The notes under the pieces: generated by a model
Told to the model about the DNA's origin: nothing
Seen by the model: the letters and a program-made list of their open reading frames with translations, nothing else
Database searches by the model: none
Made by a program: the position numbers and the translations under genes
Assembly: GCF_034263275.1 (NCBI RefSeq)
Contig: NZ_CP139559.1
Location: 6,324,001-6,388,000 of the forward strand
Length of the DNA: 64,000 bases
Direction of reading: 5' to 3'
Origin: Mucilaginibacter sp. cycad4
Lineage (GTDB): Bacteria > Bacteroidota > Bacteroidia > Sphingobacteriales > Sphingobacteriaceae
Shown: one piece after another, positions 916-62,988 of the stretch
Numbering within the stretch: the first letter of the stretch is position 1
Layout: each line of letters opens with the position of its first letter

Positions 916-1030
916 GCGCGTTAGGGATAGCAGCGTAAAGCCCACAGCGCGGGTTGGGTTTGCGGGCAGGCAAGGCGAGGACTTGCATCCGCCAGCTGGC
1001 GGACCGGCCCGTTAGCTAACGGCAACGCCC
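916..1030 (+). repeat. Dispersed ~110-bp repeat with GCGTT/AACGC ends, copy A
   Basis: The copy starts GCGCGTTAGGGAT and ends GGCAACGCCC, so its ends form a short inverted repeat. Inside it has AAAGCCCACAGCGCGGGTTGG and GCGAGGACTTG blocks, shared with copies at 43452-43558 and 62683-62782. Shorter inverted-orientation copies lie at 21476-21558 and 62909-62988. An inner palindrome CCGCCAGCTGGCGG is particular to this copy. No reading frame is evident. Confidence 0.75.
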
Positions 1031-1082
1031 ATATCATAAAACGCATCGAAAAAATATCTTAATAATCAACAATTTACGATCA

Positions 1083-1176
1083 CGTCATTATAAGGCACGA
1101 AGCAATCCCCTAAATACAGAGAGGCTTGAATGGCTGCTGTGTACAGTTCGCGATTGCTTCGTGCCTCGCAATGACG
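1083..1176. repeat. Long inverted repeat, CGTCATTGCGAG family
   Basis: Two arms of about 27 bp (1083-1109 and 1150-1176) are near-perfect reverse complements around a ~40-bp centre. A perfect copy of the same family is at 13983-14076. It lies downstream of the sigma gene, which reads leftwards, and could act as a transcript-end hairpin, though it lacks a clear T-run. Confidence 0.75.
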
Positions 1177-1203
1177 GGTGGAGAATTTATGTTAATCTTT
1201 CCC

Positions 1204-1764
1204 TTAAAAAAACATATACGTCACATGCTTCAGCACCTGGCGTAGTTTTTCAAGGGCGATGCCCATCTGGCGCTCCACGGTTTTGGGAGAGATATTTAGC
1301 TGTACGGCAATTTCTCTGTATTTCATATCGCTGAAACGGCTCAGTACAAAAATCTCACGGCATTTTTCGGGGAGGGTAGCAATGGCGGCTTCTATTTGCA
1401 GGGCAAGTTCCTTTTCTTCCAATCCATTTTCCAGCGTATTGCGCAGCTCATCAAACAGGTTATTTTTTTCGAGATAATTAACGTAAAGGTTCTCTATTTT
1501 CTGGCGCTTGAGATAATTGAGGCTCCGGTTTTGCACCATTTTAAAAAGATAGGAGCTTACCGATGAGCAAAAAGTGACCTCATGCCCGCGCTCCCACAGG
1601 TGGGTAAACACATCGGCGGTAATTTCTTCGGCGATGGCTAAATCGTTCACAAAACGATTGGAAAACAGGGTTAACCGGGTATAATACAGCTTAAACAGGG
1701 TTTCAAATGATTTTGCATCACCCTGTGTAAATGTGGTTATAGGTAGTTTGTTTTCCTGGATCAT
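1204..1764 (-). CDS. ECF RNA polymerase sigma-70 factor (Bacteroides type)
   Basis: This 186-residue protein has the usual ECF layout. Region 2 spans about residues 20-90 (FETLFKLYYTRLTLFS, then AEEITADVFTHLWE). Region 4 spans about 125-180 (LPEKCREIFVLSRF, then YREIAVQLNISPKTVERQM). It should direct RNA polymerase to promoters of the neighbouring TonB-dependent uptake system, with the FecR protein at 2005 as its anti-sigma factor and the SusC STN domain as signal source. The gene is divergent from fecR, separated by ~240 bp, whereas the more usual order in Bacteroidota is sigma then fecR on one strand. The C-terminus (HVTYMFF) is short. Confidence 0.9.
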   Translation of the reverse strand: MIQENKLPITTFTQGDAKSFETLFKLYYTRLTLFSNRFVNDLAIAEEITADVFTHLWERGHEVTFCSSVSSYLFKMVQNRSLNYLKRQKIENLYVNYLEKNNLFDELRNTLENGLEEKELALQIEAAIATLPEKCREIFVLSRFSDMKYREIAVQLNISPKTVERQMGIALEKLRQVLKHVTYMFF

Positions 1765-2004
1765 TAATCCTGCCTTTAATTAATCCGAATACTTTTTAAA
1801 AAACTTTAACAAGCTACAAGTTTTTCCGGTTCTTATCAAATTTAATATGGAAATAATGAAAAGCTAACCCCAAACATTCTGTAAAAAAACGGTTACGCGC
1901 AATATGCATGGCCCATCTGGTGCCAAAGCCGAATAAAATTGAAAATATTTCACGCTCTTTTGAGGGTATCTGTTTTTTCAATTGTCTTAACGATAATATT
2001 ACAA

Positions 2005-3069
2005 ATGGATAACGAAGAAGTAAAACTACTGTTGGTAAAATACATAACCGGCGAAGCTACCGCACAGGAGCTTGAGCAGGTTAAACAATGGATAAGTGCG
2101 CACCCCGAGAACGAGCAGTATTTTGCGCAGTTGTACGAAACCTGGCATAACATGCTTTACCTGCAGCCAATGGTTGTAAATAAAGATGATGCTTACAATA
2201 AACTTTCGGCCGATATAGAGCCCAGGCAGCCATCGCGCTATGCAAGGCTGATCACCTGGGGCAAAGCGGCTGCAGCTATTGCTTTATTTGCGGCTGTTAC
2301 GGCTACCTTATATAACAGGTATTCAAAAAATGTGGAGAGTGTAAGGCAAATAGCTGTTACCCCCGGGTCAATAAAAAAGGTTGTTTTAAGCGATGGCACA
2401 CAGGTTTGGCTTAATGCGGGCAGTAAACTTAATTATACGGCCGATTTTGGTAAAACAACGCGCACCGTTTACCTGGAGGGCGAAGCATTTTTTGATATCG
2501 CCCCCGGCAAAAAGGAGATCCCTTTTATTGTAAATACAAAAAACTATACGATAAGGGATATCGGTACAAAGTTTAATCTTAAGGCCTATGCTTCCGACCC
2601 GTTTTTTGAAACCACAGTAGTAAAAGGCGAGGTATCTGTAGAGGGAAATGCAGATAACAATGCGCATGAAATGAGCCGCATTTATGTAAAGCCGCGGCAG
2701 GTGCTCCGGATCTACTATCACCCTAAAAAAGAGAATTACAGCTATGCAGCCCCCGAGCCCAAAAGCCTGAACGAGATCCAGGTATCAGAGATAGACTCGG
2801 CAAAGCTTGACCGCTATGACGGATGGAAGGAAAACCTGCTGGTGTTTGATGGCGCAACACTCAGCGATATTGCTAAAGTGCTGGAACGAAGATATAACGT
2901 AACCATAAACATGACCGATGCCGAATTGAGCAGCATCCGTTATTCGGGCAGCTTTAAAAACATTCCGAGCATTGAAAAAGTGCTGGCTATTATAAAGGCC
3001 AATACAGCCATCAATTACTCAGTAAACGGCAACACAGTAAACATTACACGAAACAACAATAATGATTAA
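2005..3069 (+). CDS. FecR-family anti-sigma factor
   Basis: The start is placed at the ATG giving MDNEEVKLLLVKYITGEAT, which matches how this family begins; an upstream in-frame ATG at 1939 would add 22 hydrophobic residues and is less likely. The protein has 354 residues. Its cytoplasmic N-terminal part binds sigma, and one membrane segment lies near residue 90 (AAAAIALFAAVTATLY). The periplasmic FecR domain follows (VVLSDGTQVWLNAGSKL, YLEGEAFFDI), then a C-terminal DUF4974-type domain (LLVFDGATLSDIAKVLERRY). It relays the substrate-loaded state of the SusC protein to the ECF sigma factor encoded divergently at 1204-1764. Confidence 0.92.
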   Translation: MDNEEVKLLLVKYITGEATAQELEQVKQWISAHPENEQYFAQLYETWHNMLYLQPMVVNKDDAYNKLSADIEPRQPSRYARLITWGKAAAAIALFAAVTATLYNRYSKNVESVRQIAVTPGSIKKVVLSDGTQVWLNAGSKLNYTADFGKTTRTVYLEGEAFFDIAPGKKEIPFIVNTKNYTIRDIGTKFNLKAYASDPFFETTVVKGEVSVEGNADNNAHEMSRIYVKPRQVLRIYYHPKKENYSYAAPEPKSLNEIQVSEIDSAKLDRYDGWKENLLVFDGATLSDIAKVLERRYNVTINMTDAELSSIRYSGSFKNIPSIEKVLAIIKANTAINYSVNGNTVNITRNNNND

Positions 3070-35805: not shown

Positions 35806-36180
35806 CTATTTCTCTTTGTACAATTCTTCTTTATCCAGCACTTCCTTTTTTTCGATGCGGTATGATAAAAACAAGCCCGCCCCTCCGAATATAGCTATCA
35901 GCGCTACATATAAAAAGAAAACATCATCGTCAAAGCTATTGAATACGCTGCGGTTTAAAACATATGCTAAAAATAAACCGATACCTGAGCCGATGAGCAA
36001 TAAGCCCCATTTTAAATTTTGATACGGAGCCGATTGTGGTTTATAACTCCTTGGATCCATGTTTCGTTCTATCATTGCTAATTTCTCCCGTTTGTTTAAG
36101 TAAACGATGCCGAAGATCATCGCGAATAAGCTGAGGGGTATTATTATTCCGGCTAATACGCCCAATTGTCCAGGTCCCAT
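35806..36180 (-). CDS. DUF6249-type membrane protein, probable ECF-regulon member
   Basis: This 124-residue protein has membrane segments at ~7-28 (GVLAGIIIPLSLFAMIFGIVYL), ~57-75 and ~88-106. The cytoplasmic loop has REKLAMIERNMDPRSY, a pattern I associate with DUF6249. The function is unknown. Upstream at 36253-36285 is the same 33-bp motif that precedes the ECF sigma operon at 61997-62578. The sigma factor therefore probably drives this gene, although it lies about 26 kb away. Confidence 0.8.
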   Translation of the reverse strand: MGPGQLGVLAGIIIPLSLFAMIFGIVYLNKREKLAMIERNMDPRSYKPQSAPYQNLKWGLLLIGSGIGLFLAYVLNRSVFNSFDDDVFFLYVALIAIFGGAGLFLSYRIEKKEVLDKEELYKEK

Positions 36181-36252
36181 AATATTTGTTTTTTTAATTA
36201 AGTAATATTGTTTTTTTTCTCTGTAAATACTCCATTGCGGTGTATTTGTAAG

Positions 36253-36285
36253 CTATGACCACACGTTTTTTAAACAGGTTACACC
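36253..36285 (-). promoter_or_regulatory. Predicted ECF-sigma promoter upstream of the DUF6249 gene
   Basis: On the minus strand it reads GGTGTAACCTG-N10-GTGTGGTCATAG. It matches 62589-62621 at all 23 fixed positions with the same 10-bp spacer. The GTAACC and GGTCATA parts sit where -35 and -10 elements of ECF sigma factors are expected. The downstream ATG is 72 bp away. Confidence 0.75.
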
Positions 36286-58900: not shown

Positions 58901-61174
58901 ATGAAACTTAAGATATTTGCATTAAATATACTACTTCTGCTATTGAGCAGCCACGGGCTGTATGCGCAGCAAAAAACTATTTCGGGAATGGTTATTGACA
59001 GTGCCACCCGTGTGCCGGTTAACGGCGTTACCGTTGTTTTAAACCCGGTAAACCAAACAGCTATTACAGGCGAGACCGGGCACTTTTCATACAGGAACGT
59101 GGGGCCGGCGGCACTATCCCTTACAATTACCGCCGTGGGCTACCAAAAAAAAGTTATTCCACTTACCGAACCCGACCTTAAGCCCCTGATATGCCTGAGC
59201 CCGAAACAGACCCTGTTGACCGATGTGGTGATCACCGCTAATAACCCGAACCCTTATAAAGCCATCAGCGAAACAGATATAAAATTACGCGGTGTTTCCA
59301 ATTCGCAGGAAGTACTGCGTATAGTTCCGGGCCTGTTTATTGGTCAGCATCAGGGAGGCGGTAAAGCCGAACAGATCTTTTTAAGGGGCTTTGACAATGA
59401 TCATGGTACCAATATCAATATGAGTGTTGACGGTATGCCAATCAATATGGTATCACAAGCACATGGACAGGGCTATGCCGACAGTCATTTTATCATCCCG
59501 GAAACAATTGAAAGTACCAACTATCAAAAAGGCATGTATAATGCAGAGAAAGGCGACCTGGCAGTTACCGGGTTTGTGAACTTTAACACAGCCAACGCAA
59601 TCAGTTCAAACCAGGTTAAAATAGAAGGCGGGCAATATAATACTTACCGGGTGTTTGGCATGGTCAACCTGCTTGGTGAAAAAGCTAAAGCCGATAACCA
59701 GTCCTGGTATGCCGCTTCAGAATACCGGTACAGCGATAGTTATTTTAACAATCCGCAACACTTTAAACGCTTCAACTTTTTCACCAAATATCATGGGAGG
59801 TTAAATGCTAATAATTGGCTAACGGTTAGCACTTCTGCCTTATCCAGCGCCTGGAAAGCATCGGGCCAGATTCCGGAAAGCGCGGTGAACGATGGTATCG
59901 TTGGTTTTTACGGCGCGCTTGACCCCAACGAAGGCGGAACAACATCGCGCATCAATGTGAATGCACAGCTTTTAACCGGGCTTCCAAATCACGATATCCT
60001 CAAAAACCAGTTTTATTATTCGCGTTATAAATTTGATCTGCATACTAATTTTACGTTTTATCTTGCAGATACAGTTCATGGTGACGAGATCCGTCAACGG
60101 GAATCACGCAATTTGTATGGCTACAACGGCAGTTATCTTCATGAAGGTTATATTGGCAACACCAGGCTGACAACGGAAGCAGGGATCAATACCCGGCTGG
60201 ATATGACCAGGGGTTCGGAATTGTCGCATACGGCGAATAACTTCACTGTTATCAATCCCATTAAATCAGGTGATATTACCGAATTGAGTGCCGGAACCTA
60301 CCTGAATGAAACGTTCCGGTTCAGCTCAAAATTTTCCGTGAGCGCAGGTTTAAGGTTTGATCAGTTTTATTACCGGTATAATAACAAACTGGCTACTGAC
60401 AGCACGCTTAACGGTATTGGTGTTTATACCGCCAATAATAATGTAGTGAGCCCTAAATTGAATTTTTATTACCAGGTTAATGACAAAACCCAGCTTTATT
60501 TATTAACCGGGAAAGGCTTCCATTCCAATGATACACGGGTGGTTGTGGCACGGGGAGGTTTGCAAACTTTGCCCGCAGCATACGGTGCCGATTTGGGCAC
60601 AGTATTTAAGCCTGCAAAAACCCTGTTATTCAACGCCGCCTTATGGTACAGTTACCTGGAAAAAGAATATGTATATGCTGGTGATGGAGGTTCGGTAGAA
60701 TTTAGTGGCCGTACCCGCCGCATTGGTTTTGACTTGTCCGGACGCTACCAACCGCTCAAATCCTTATACTTTGATGCGGACATTAATTACGCATGCGGGC
60801 GTTCGCCGGACGACCCGGCCGGGGCAAACAATATTCCTTTAGCACCAGTTTGGAGCAGCGCAGGCGGCATAACTTATATTTTTAAAAACGGTTTGAACGG
60901 AAGCCTACGCTACCGGTATCTTGGTGACCGCCCTGCAAATGCCGATTATAGCCTGACTGCCAGGGGCTATTTCATCAATGACCTGGTATGGAATTATACC
61001 CAGCCCAAATATGAAATTGGTTTAACGATAAATAACCTGTTCAATGTGCGGTGGAAGGAAACTCAATTTGAAACAGTTACCCGGTTAAAAAACCAGGCGC
61101 CTGTTGATGGAATAGCTTTTACGGCAGGAACAAAGTTCGCAGCCTTGGTGCATCTCAGTTATTTCTTTAAATAA
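58901..61174 (+). CDS. TonB-dependent outer-membrane receptor
   Basis: This 757-residue protein has a signal peptide ending GLYAQ (~22). A carboxypeptidase-regulatory-like domain (~27-105, ISGMVIDSATRVPVNGVTVVL) leads to the plug (~118-225, QIFLRGFDNDHGTNINMSVDG) and a barrel to the C-terminal Phe (VHLSYFFK). It has no SusD partner and is too short for SusC, so it fits siderophore, metal or vitamin uptake. The ligand is unknown. The gap before it (58612-58900) holds no convincing gene. Confidence 0.94.
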   Translation: MKLKIFALNILLLLLSSHGLYAQQKTISGMVIDSATRVPVNGVTVVLNPVNQTAITGETGHFSYRNVGPAALSLTITAVGYQKKVIPLTEPDLKPLICLSPKQTLLTDVVITANNPNPYKAISETDIKLRGVSNSQEVLRIVPGLFIGQHQGGGKAEQIFLRGFDNDHGTNINMSVDGMPINMVSQAHGQGYADSHFIIPETIESTNYQKGMYNAEKGDLAVTGFVNFNTANAISSNQVKIEGGQYNTYRVFGMVNLLGEKAKADNQSWYAASEYRYSDSYFNNPQHFKRFNFFTKYHGRLNANNWLTVSTSALSSAWKASGQIPESAVNDGIVGFYGALDPNEGGTTSRINVNAQLLTGLPNHDILKNQFYYSRYKFDLHTNFTFYLADTVHGDEIRQRESRNLYGYNGSYLHEGYIGNTRLTTEAGINTRLDMTRGSELSHTANNFTVINPIKSGDITELSAGTYLNETFRFSSKFSVSAGLRFDQFYYRYNNKLATDSTLNGIGVYTANNNVVSPKLNFYYQVNDKTQLYLLTGKGFHSNDTRVVVARGGLQTLPAAYGADLGTVFKPAKTLLFNAALWYSYLEKEYVYAGDGGSVEFSGRTRRIGFDLSGRYQPLKSLYFDADINYACGRSPDDPAGANNIPLAPVWSSAGGITYIFKNGLNGSLRYRYLGDRPANADYSLTARGYFINDLVWNYTQPKYEIGLTINNLFNVRWKETQFETVTRLKNQAPVDGIAFTAGTKFAALVHLSYFFK

Positions 61175-61493: not shown

Positions 61494-62000
61494 TTATGCC
61501 TCTTTTGCAGCTTTTTTTCTACGCAGATAACTGTCAGTTAAAAATAGCGCCAAAATTACATCAAATACGAAAAAACTTTTCATGAAGGCGCTGTTGAAAA
61601 TGCTGTTAGCTGCGGGCAATTTAACATCTGCAAGTAGTTTAATGTTTACAACACTGAACGGATTTCCTGAAATTTGGACATTTGAAAGGGTGATTGCCAG
61701 CAGGGCCAATATGCTTAGCACAAAAAAGGCAGCAATACCCAGTATAATCTTTTTATTTATAGTTGATTTCAGAGGTGCCAGCGCCTGATCTGCCCTGATA
61801 GCCTCCATTACATTATAGTTAAAAGCCATTGATGGTTCATCAAGTTCCAGATCAGCAAATTCCTGGTTCAACACCAGCAGTTTAGTGTACTTTTGTTTGT
61901 ACAGTTCGTCTTCCTCAATAAGCCGGGCAATGGTTTCCTGCTCAGCCGGTGTGCAGGTACCATCAATATAGTTCCAAAGTTTTTCTTCGATGGTATTCAT
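61494..62000 (-). CDS. Membrane anti-sigma factor-like protein
   Basis: This 168-residue protein begins with an N-terminal zinc-finger-less anti-sigma region (EEKLWNYIDGTCTPAEQETIARLI), the usual start of Bacteroidota ECF partners. Two membrane helices follow at ~85-106 and ~142-160. There is no long periplasmic domain, so the signal may be membrane state. Its ATG overlaps the sigma stop in ATGA, giving coupled synthesis. Confidence 0.82.
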   Translation of the reverse strand: MNTIEEKLWNYIDGTCTPAEQETIARLIEEDELYKQKYTKLLVLNQEFADLELDEPSMAFNYNVMEAIRADQALAPLKSTINKKIILGIAAFFVLSILALLAITLSNVQISGNPFSVVNIKLLADVKLPAANSIFNSAFMKSFFVFDVILALFLTDSYLRRKKAAKEA

Positions 62001-62578
62001 ATCAGTTCTTTCACCTCGTGTTTTAAATTGCGCTCCAGCTTTTCTTTCAAACGCTGGCGTGCCCTAAATAGTTTAACCTTAACGGTATTTGTTTCAATCC
62101 CCATTGTTTGGGCAATTTCTTCTAACGATTGCTCCCCCTTATAAAACAAGGTAATGATAGTGGCATCATCGGGCAGTAACTGCTCAATTGCCTGGTTCAG
62201 GTAATATGACCGCGATTTGTTTTCTGCATTGTTAGTATCATACGCCGATTCATGGCTTTCAACCTGTACAAAGGTACCTTCATCATCAATCGAATCGGTA
62301 TCCACCCGTTTCTTTCTTAAAAATGTCATAGCTGTAGTATAAACTATACTATACAGCCATGTACTAAATTTCGACTGCCCCTGGAACGAAGCCAGCGAGC
62401 GGTACGCTTTCACAAAACAATCCTGCGCAATCTCTTCAGCATCTTCCCGGCCCTTTGCAAAACGCATGGCCAGTGTAAAAACAAAACGCTGGTGCCGCTT
62501 AACCAAATCAGCGTACGCGAACTGGTTACCCGTCAGGGTTTGCTCAATAAGTTCGATATCTGAAAGCTTGCTCTGCAT
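61997..62578 (-). CDS. ECF RNA polymerase sigma factor, probably autoregulated
   Basis: This 193-residue protein has region 2 (YADLVKRHQRFVFTLAMRF, AEEIAQDCFVKAYRSLASF, KFSTWLYSIVYTTAMTFLRK). Region 4 is LLPDDATIITLFYKGEQSLEEIAQTMGIETNTVKVKLFRARQRLK. It is of the RpoE/SigW-like kind rather than the FecR-linked kind. The 33-bp motif at 62589-62621, ten bases before the ATG, also precedes the DUF6249 gene and is probably its own target promoter. It is coupled to the anti-sigma gene. Confidence 0.94.
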   Translation of the reverse strand: MQSKLSDIELIEQTLTGNQFAYADLVKRHQRFVFTLAMRFAKGREDAEEIAQDCFVKAYRSLASFQGQSKFSTWLYSIVYTTAMTFLRKKRVDTDSIDDEGTFVQVESHESAYDTNNAENKSRSYYLNQAIEQLLPDDATIITLFYKGEQSLEEIAQTMGIETNTVKVKLFRARQRLKEKLERNLKHEVKELI

Positions 62579-62588
62579 TATATAACCT

Positions 62589-62621
62589 CTATGACCACAC
62601 TTTTACAGACCAGGTTACACC
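62589..62621 (-). promoter_or_regulatory. Predicted autoregulated ECF-sigma promoter
   Basis: On the minus strand it is GGTGTAACCTG-N10-GTGTGGTCATAG, identical at 23 fixed positions and spacer length with 36253-36285. It ends 10 bp before the sigma ATG, so the leader would be very short. Confidence 0.75.
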
Positions 62622-62682: not shown

Positions 62683-62782
62683 GCGCGTTAGGGATTGCAG
62701 TGAAAAGTCCACAGCGCGGGTTGGAATTGCGAGAAGGAAAAGCGAGGACTTGTAACGGAAAGCCCGGGCCGCAGGCAACGCC
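62683..62782 (+). repeat. Dispersed GCGTT/AACGC-ended repeat, copy C
   Basis: It starts GCGCGTTAGGGATTGCAGTG and ends CCGGGCCGCAGGCAACGCC, with the GCGAGGACTTGTAACGGAAA block inside, as in copy B. Confidence 0.8.
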
Positions 62783-62786
62783 ATTT

Positions 62787-62863
62787 CTGAACTCGAATTA
62801 AACGAATTTTAAGAATTTACTTAGCATTCTGTTAATTCTTTAATTCAAAAAATTCGAGTTCAG
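62787..62863. repeat. AT-rich inverted repeat between copies C and E
   Basis: CTGAACTCGAATT (62787-62799) and AATTCGAGTTCAG (62851-62863) are perfect reverse complements around AATTCTTTAATT-like sequence. The right arm, extended to TTCGAGTTCAGACAAA, recurs at 10039-10054. Confidence 0.75.
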
Positions 62864-62908
62864 ACAAACCAGTTAACCTCTAATCACCGATCACCAATCT
62901 CTTTTACG

Positions 62909-62988
62909 CGCGTTGCCTGCGGCCGGGCTTTACGCTCATACGCCTGCAGGCATTATGCTCCAGGCCAGTATCCGCTTCAATCCAACGC
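62909..62988 (-). repeat. Dispersed GCGTT/AACGC-ended repeat, short copy E
   Basis: It is the reverse-orientation short form, like copy D (21476-21558), sharing GCCGGGCTTTACGCTCATAC-type sequence. With copy C it makes an inverted pair around an AT-rich hairpin. Confidence 0.75.

Follow-up and report, generated by a model that had tools for sequence, protein, structure and literature searches.

Introduction

In established ECF biology, a membrane anti-sigma factor holds the sigma factor, a signal frees it, and the freed sigma factor transcribes its targets. Systems in which an autoregulated ECF/anti-sigma pair controls a target are well known and are represented by the RpoE-RseA and SigW-RsiW type, with membrane class I anti-sigma factors. 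FecI/FecR-type systems, which also combine an ECF sigma factor with a membrane anti-sigma factor, are common in Bacteroidota. In Bacteroides, EcfO-Reo and Das1-Dma1 are ECF/anti-sigma systems, and EcfO-Reo is described as answering envelope stress (PMC13114119, PMC12596196). Class I anti-sigma factors have been reported beside only 6% of ECFs in the phylum (PMC7406223). Riemerella anatipestifer RA0C_1534 is a sigma70-family factor that H2O2 induces and that the bacterium requires to tolerate this oxidant; we liken it by description to the sigma factor studied here, as another Bacteroidota member of that family, and the available part of the report describes neither a partner nor a promoter (PMC6557517).

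Here, we analyzed a 64,000-nucleotide stretch of the Mucilaginibacter sp. cycad4 chromosome (hereafter the window), which contains the following features:

61997-62578, minus strand: ECF sigma factor, 193 aa, sigma2 and sigma4 domains (Pfam Sigma70_r2 3.7e-17, Sigma70_r4_2 8.9e-12)
61494-62000, minus strand: predicted anti-sigma factor, 168 aa, two transmembrane (TM) helices, class I-like domain without zinc ligands
62589-62621, minus strand: predicted ECF promoter of the sigma/anti-sigma operon (-35 TGTAACC, N17, -10 GTCA), present at all 116 genus orthologues with fixed spacing
35806-36180, minus strand: DUF6249 membrane protein, 124 aa, three predicted helices (Pfam PF19762 7.6e-21)
36253-36285, minus strand: predicted ECF promoter of the DUF6249 gene, present at all 116 genus orthologues
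36225-36247, minus strand: small hairpin close to where the DUF6249 leader is predicted to begin, inverted repeat AAATAC-A-CC...GG-A-GTATTT

The window pair shares with the RpoE-RseA and SigW-RsiW type a sigma2-sigma4 protein, a self-read promoter (here predicted), and an overlapping gene for an anti-sigma factor with a cytoplasmic domain and TM helices. It differs in its apparently very small regulon of two promoters, its -35 element TGTAACC, and its divergent dedicated partner, DUF6249. EcfO-Reo and Das1-Dma1 are likewise Bacteroidota ECF/anti-sigma pairs, but their anti-sigma factors span both membranes, whereas the two TM helices of the 168-aa window protein lie close together and its length falls short of such a span; moreover, the EcfO regulon encodes NigD proteins, whereas the partner here is DUF6249 (PMC13114119, PMC12596196). 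The FecR anti-sigma factor and the TonB receptor within the regulon that mark FecI/FecR (SusC-type) systems are both lacking: the window anti-sigma factor had no FecR match among Pfam and TIGR-type profiles, and a position weight matrix (PWM) scan of the window detected no motif before the neighbouring TonB-receptor-like gene (58901-61174). Our search of open-licence literature found no paper on DUF6249 or PF19762 in bacteria; given this restriction, the sigma/DUF6249 synteny may already have been recorded with a 'hypothetical protein' label.

An initial annotation had proposed an ECF promoter shared by an autoregulated sigma operon and a DUF6249 regulon gene, and conservation, synteny, co-occurrence across genomes and co-varying promoters all back this proposal; the membrane-stress function and the effector role that it also assigned are conjectural. 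We consider it very probable that both 33-bp sites are promoters read by the ECF sigma factor at 61997-62578, which, once released from its anti-sigma factor, would transcribe its own operon and DUF6249.

Results

Two matched sites precede the sigma and DUF6249 genes

The motif GGTGTAACCTG-N10-GTGTGGTCATAG was matched with no mismatch on the minus strand at 36253-36285 and 62589-62621, exactly as first annotated. The two copies share 23 fixed bases and differ in their N10 spacers. The distances given initially were also correct: the 62589-62621 site lies 10 bp from the sigma start codon (ATG, 62578), and the 36253-36285 site lies 72 bp from that of the DUF6249 gene (ATG, 36180). None of 100 dinucleotide shuffles of the window contained any match to the motif. 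In a genome-wide motif search allowing up to three mismatches, the two window sites were the sole full-motif matches in the whole 7.11-Mb chromosome.

Since the ATG of the sigma gene lies only 14 nt after GTC, the leader of the sigma transcript would be extremely short. A transcript start 8-12 bp after GGTCATAG would fall at or inside the sigma ATG; at ECF promoters, a start approximately 5-9 nt after GTC is more likely, giving a very short sigma leader. Upstream of the sigma promoter, at 62764-62927, we also noted nested inverted repeats, with 18-nt arms CCGGGCCGCAGGCAACGC (94% complementary) around 23-nt arms, which look like a small repeat element.

The window sigma factor consists of regions 2 and 4 only, both scoring above cut-off, and it reached 108.6 bits against TIGR02937 (cut-off 42.9). 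Its relatives in the PDB include RpoE-type sigma-E (1or7), SigW and SigH. The anti-sigma gene overlaps the sigma stop codon by 4 nt and is thus placed for co-transcription. The zf-HC2 score of its product is 15.1 bits, below the cut-off of 22.2 that some zinc-type relatives exceed. In an HMM-HMM comparison, the protein matched zinc-type relatives over its full length (probability 97.6%). A further sigma70 region 2 match (7e-6; window ~1498-1698, minus strand) belongs to an ECF-type gene near the window start.

A shorter core is conserved across the genus

We compared the upstream DNA of the sigma and DUF6249 orthologues from 116 Mucilaginibacter genomes that hold both genes. TAAC-N18-GTC was present in 232 of 232 upstream regions (116/116 for sigma and 116/116 for DUF6249) with invariant spacing, whereas a mis-spaced control search, using a 12-base spacer in place of the 13-base one, yielded chance-like matches only. 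Near-invariant across the 116 genomes were TGTAACC, GTC and an A at position 32, and T10 and A30 were conserved at 90-100%, giving the consensus TGTAACCT-N16-GTCA-n-A(G) for both promoter classes. Sigma promoters usually run on as AGAGAG; in DUF6249 promoters the continuation is ATAGCT and the spacer is A-rich. We also trained a PWM on one half of the remaining genomes: every held-out site scored at least 6.2 bits, compared to -5.0 for the best unrelated position in the window.

From this conservation, the predicted determinant is TGTAACC-N17-GTCA, and the recognition site is smaller than the 23 shared bases suggest. The 33-bp near-identity in cycad4 is partly local to the strain. Both copies of the 33-bp promoter described initially are exact, but the recognition core within them is narrower. 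Outside the core, the two promoters of a genome resembled each other only slightly in excess of expectation (10.58 vs 10.25, 22/2000 permutations). Near-identity of 23 fixed bases in two places might otherwise point to a recent duplication or a mobile fragment (chance or a repeat family) with no regulatory function. The differing spacers and the lack of further copies in the genome speak against such an origin, and the fact that all 116 genomes carry the copies at equivalent positions ahead of orthologous genes refutes it, so that its probability is negligible.

The two genes are ancestral neighbours and are lost together

In cycad4 the sigma and DUF6249 genes lie 26.4 kb apart, and the DUF6249 gene had been described as distant. 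Instead, the two are ancestral divergent neighbours: they are adjacent in 91 of the 116 Mucilaginibacter genomes, with matched 5' ends 199 to 3815 bp apart, and are separated in the remaining 25, cycad4 among them. Both predicted promoters were kept in 25/25 genomes with separated genes. That both sites persist after the genes moved apart amounts to a natural experiment favoring joint regulation. In the cycad4 lineage, in which DUF6249 has left sigma, a PdeM-type ligase-associated phosphoesterase gene (TIGR04123; 36350-37009, plus strand) lies divergent from DUF6249.

The genes also disappear together. Five of 121 Mucilaginibacter genomes lack the sigma gene; four of these lack DUF6249 as well, and the fifth has only a weak match (8.8e-5). 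This co-loss is significant over the 121 genomes (Fisher p = 6e-7).

The pairing extends to other genera and across the phylum

We next sampled 20 genomes from other Sphingobacteriaceae genera, fetching 2-2.5 kb per locus. The motif preceded 18 of the 20 sigma genes which, together with its presence upstream of sigma in 116/116 genomes of the genus, is the self-promoter expected of an autoregulated module. The two sigma genes without a motif of their own (L353 and L365) are explained by operon order: they lie in tandem DUF6249-sigma-anti-sigma arrangements, in which DUF6249 comes first and a single motif stands ahead of it. DUF6249 fell inside the fetched sequence at 17/20 loci, and the motif was upstream of it in 17/17.

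In a search of 198 Bacteroidota genomes, PF19762 was present in 62. With the window sigma factor as the query, an ECF sigma gene was found to adjoin DUF6249 in 28 of 30 phylum loci examined (25 divergent, 3 tandem); the two exceptions were the window's own locus and L389. In a tree, the DUF6249-adjacent sigma factors grouped together, separately from 28 sigma paralogues encoded by cycad4 (support 85/84). At almost all readable loci, the gene after sigma encodes a membrane protein for which two TM helices are predicted; the sigma-then-anti-sigma order is likewise the same in the other Sphingobacteriaceae genera and at nearly all readable phylum loci. HxxxCxxC-like zinc ligands are kept in the anti-sigma factors of the DUF6249-linked module at L368, L380, L383, L385, L387 and L391, and have been lost from those of Sphingobacteriaceae, including the window's.

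A motif-anchored test found G[TAC]AAC-N-GTC before 22/28 phylum sigma genes (shuffle background 5%) and 27/30 DUF6249 genes (background 12%); overlap between search windows had confounded a de novo matched-pair search of short intergenic regions between divergent genes. The two promoters of a locus co-vary, with GTAACC, GAAACC or GCAACC in front of both genes. The variable -35 base agreed within 20 of 21 promoter pairs against 10.9 expected (0/200,000 permutations), a count that ignores shared ancestry, so that the agreement is less independent than the permutations suggest and the p-values overstate independence. The sites, their conservation, their co-inheritance and this co-variation were all computed directly. 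Synteny, co-inheritance and co-varying promoters tie DUF6249 to one ECF/anti-sigma pair across Bacteroidota, a link that gives DUF6249 a predicted regulator, a promoter and a testable and likely role, and that cleanly defines the -35 and -10 elements of one ECF group of the phylum.

A paralogous module carries different promoters

A second DUF6249-like gene (~5407050-5407380) is present on the cycad4 chromosome; it diverges from another ECF sigma gene, which is followed by a gene for a membrane-anchored protein. This second module (~5407050-5408480, locus L423) is composed as follows, numbered within the locus:

984-1316, minus strand: DUF6249
1438-1995, plus strand: ECF sigma factor
1992-2405, plus strand: membrane protein

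Matched promoters TTGCAACCG-N14-TTGACTACT lie on both sides, and their sequence is unlike that of the first module. Such paralogous pairs, each with matched promoters of a different sequence, provide a naturally occurring example of insulated ECF circuits.

The regulon seems to comprise two transcription units

Scanning the whole chromosome with a promoter profile returned the two sites at E values of 1.8e-5 and 5.3e-4 and nothing else below 0.2. Looser patterns matched mostly inside genes, and the near-matches at 2713985, 4995558, 6799702, 1595269 and 6876244 were rejected, as they lie inside long open reading frames. We also set aside a TGTAACG-type site at 5476103-5476132 (L006), which is intergenic and precedes a DUF4097 gene: genus orthologues of this gene carry TGCAACG...GTC, so the site probably belongs to another ECF factor. 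These sequences suggest that the DUF4097 gene is part of another ECF regulon with a related -35 element. Intergenic matches with one mismatch were found at 3304298 and 4287591. The predicted regulon thus seems to consist of two transcription units, with weak further sites possible. Given that the genome offers no other convincing site, DUF6249 is probably the main output of the sigma factor.

AAC-type -35 elements are frequent among ECF promoters, and the genome contains 66 Pfam sigma70_r2 matches, that is, 60-odd sigma70-family genes, another of which could also read the sites. The sites might then be served by a different ECF sigma factor, or by several with overlapping specificity, and not chiefly by the adjacent one; the resemblance of the TGTAACG/TGCAACG-N-GTC promoter of the DUF4097 gene to the two sites fits such overlap. 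Nevertheless, we regard this as unlikely, since the sigma gene and the two sites share their pattern of inheritance and loss, the variable -35 base changes in step at the two promoters of a genome, and the paralogous module uses a different sequence.

Proposed circuit and the role of DUF6249

We therefore favor the adjacent sigma factor as the reader of both sites, and we infer its binding, the action of the anti-sigma factor, the envelope signal and the role of DUF6249 by following known ECF behavior. In the resting state, the sigma factor would be held by the two-helix membrane anti-sigma factor co-encoded at 61494-62000. An envelope signal would free it, and RNA polymerase with sigma would bind TGTAACC (-35) and GTCA (-10), 17 bp apart. 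Transcription of its own operon would provide positive feedback as well as new anti-sigma factor, and the same sigma factor would transcribe the DUF6249 gene. DUF6249, a predicted small three-helix inner-membrane protein, might then act as an effector or as a second feedback part.

The window DUF6249 protein scored 74.5 bits against PF19762, well above the gathering cut-off of 33. Its AlphaFold model (pLDDT 78.5) has helices at residues 3-38, 54-78 and 87-123, and a fold search with this model gave no match at E < 0.001. The alignment of the family shows a conserved charged loop motif, ERxAMIEKGxxP. This loop would suit a protein that, under sigma control, regulates the same sigma factor by negative feedback, as a co-anti-sigma factor, sensor or adaptor, and is not an output. 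DUF6249 also remains beside sigma phylum-wide and is co-lost with it, and a second paralogue pairs with a second ECF sigma factor and its own matched promoters, a tight pairing that is typical of regulators. On the other hand, a dedicated anti-sigma gene already lies next to sigma, and DUF6249 has no detected sequence or fold similarity to known anti-sigma factors. On balance, we give a regulatory DUF6249 substantial weight while judging it somewhat improbable. Also less likely than not, and put forward tentatively, is the broader idea that sigma, anti-sigma and DUF6249 form an ancient, closed unit, found phylum-wide and with nearly a single output, that determines how much DUF6249 the inner membrane contains and is subject to feedback from DUF6249 on the sensor.

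Lastly, we examined the predicted DUF6249 transcript leader, which is approximately 70 nt long. RNAalifold gave no consensus structure for the DUF6249 leaders, probably because their loops misalign. The hairpin at 36225-36247 is kept in relatives, weakly and with different pairings. By single-sequence folding, the mean z of the 116 leaders was -1.47, compared to -0.03 and +0.55 in control stretches.
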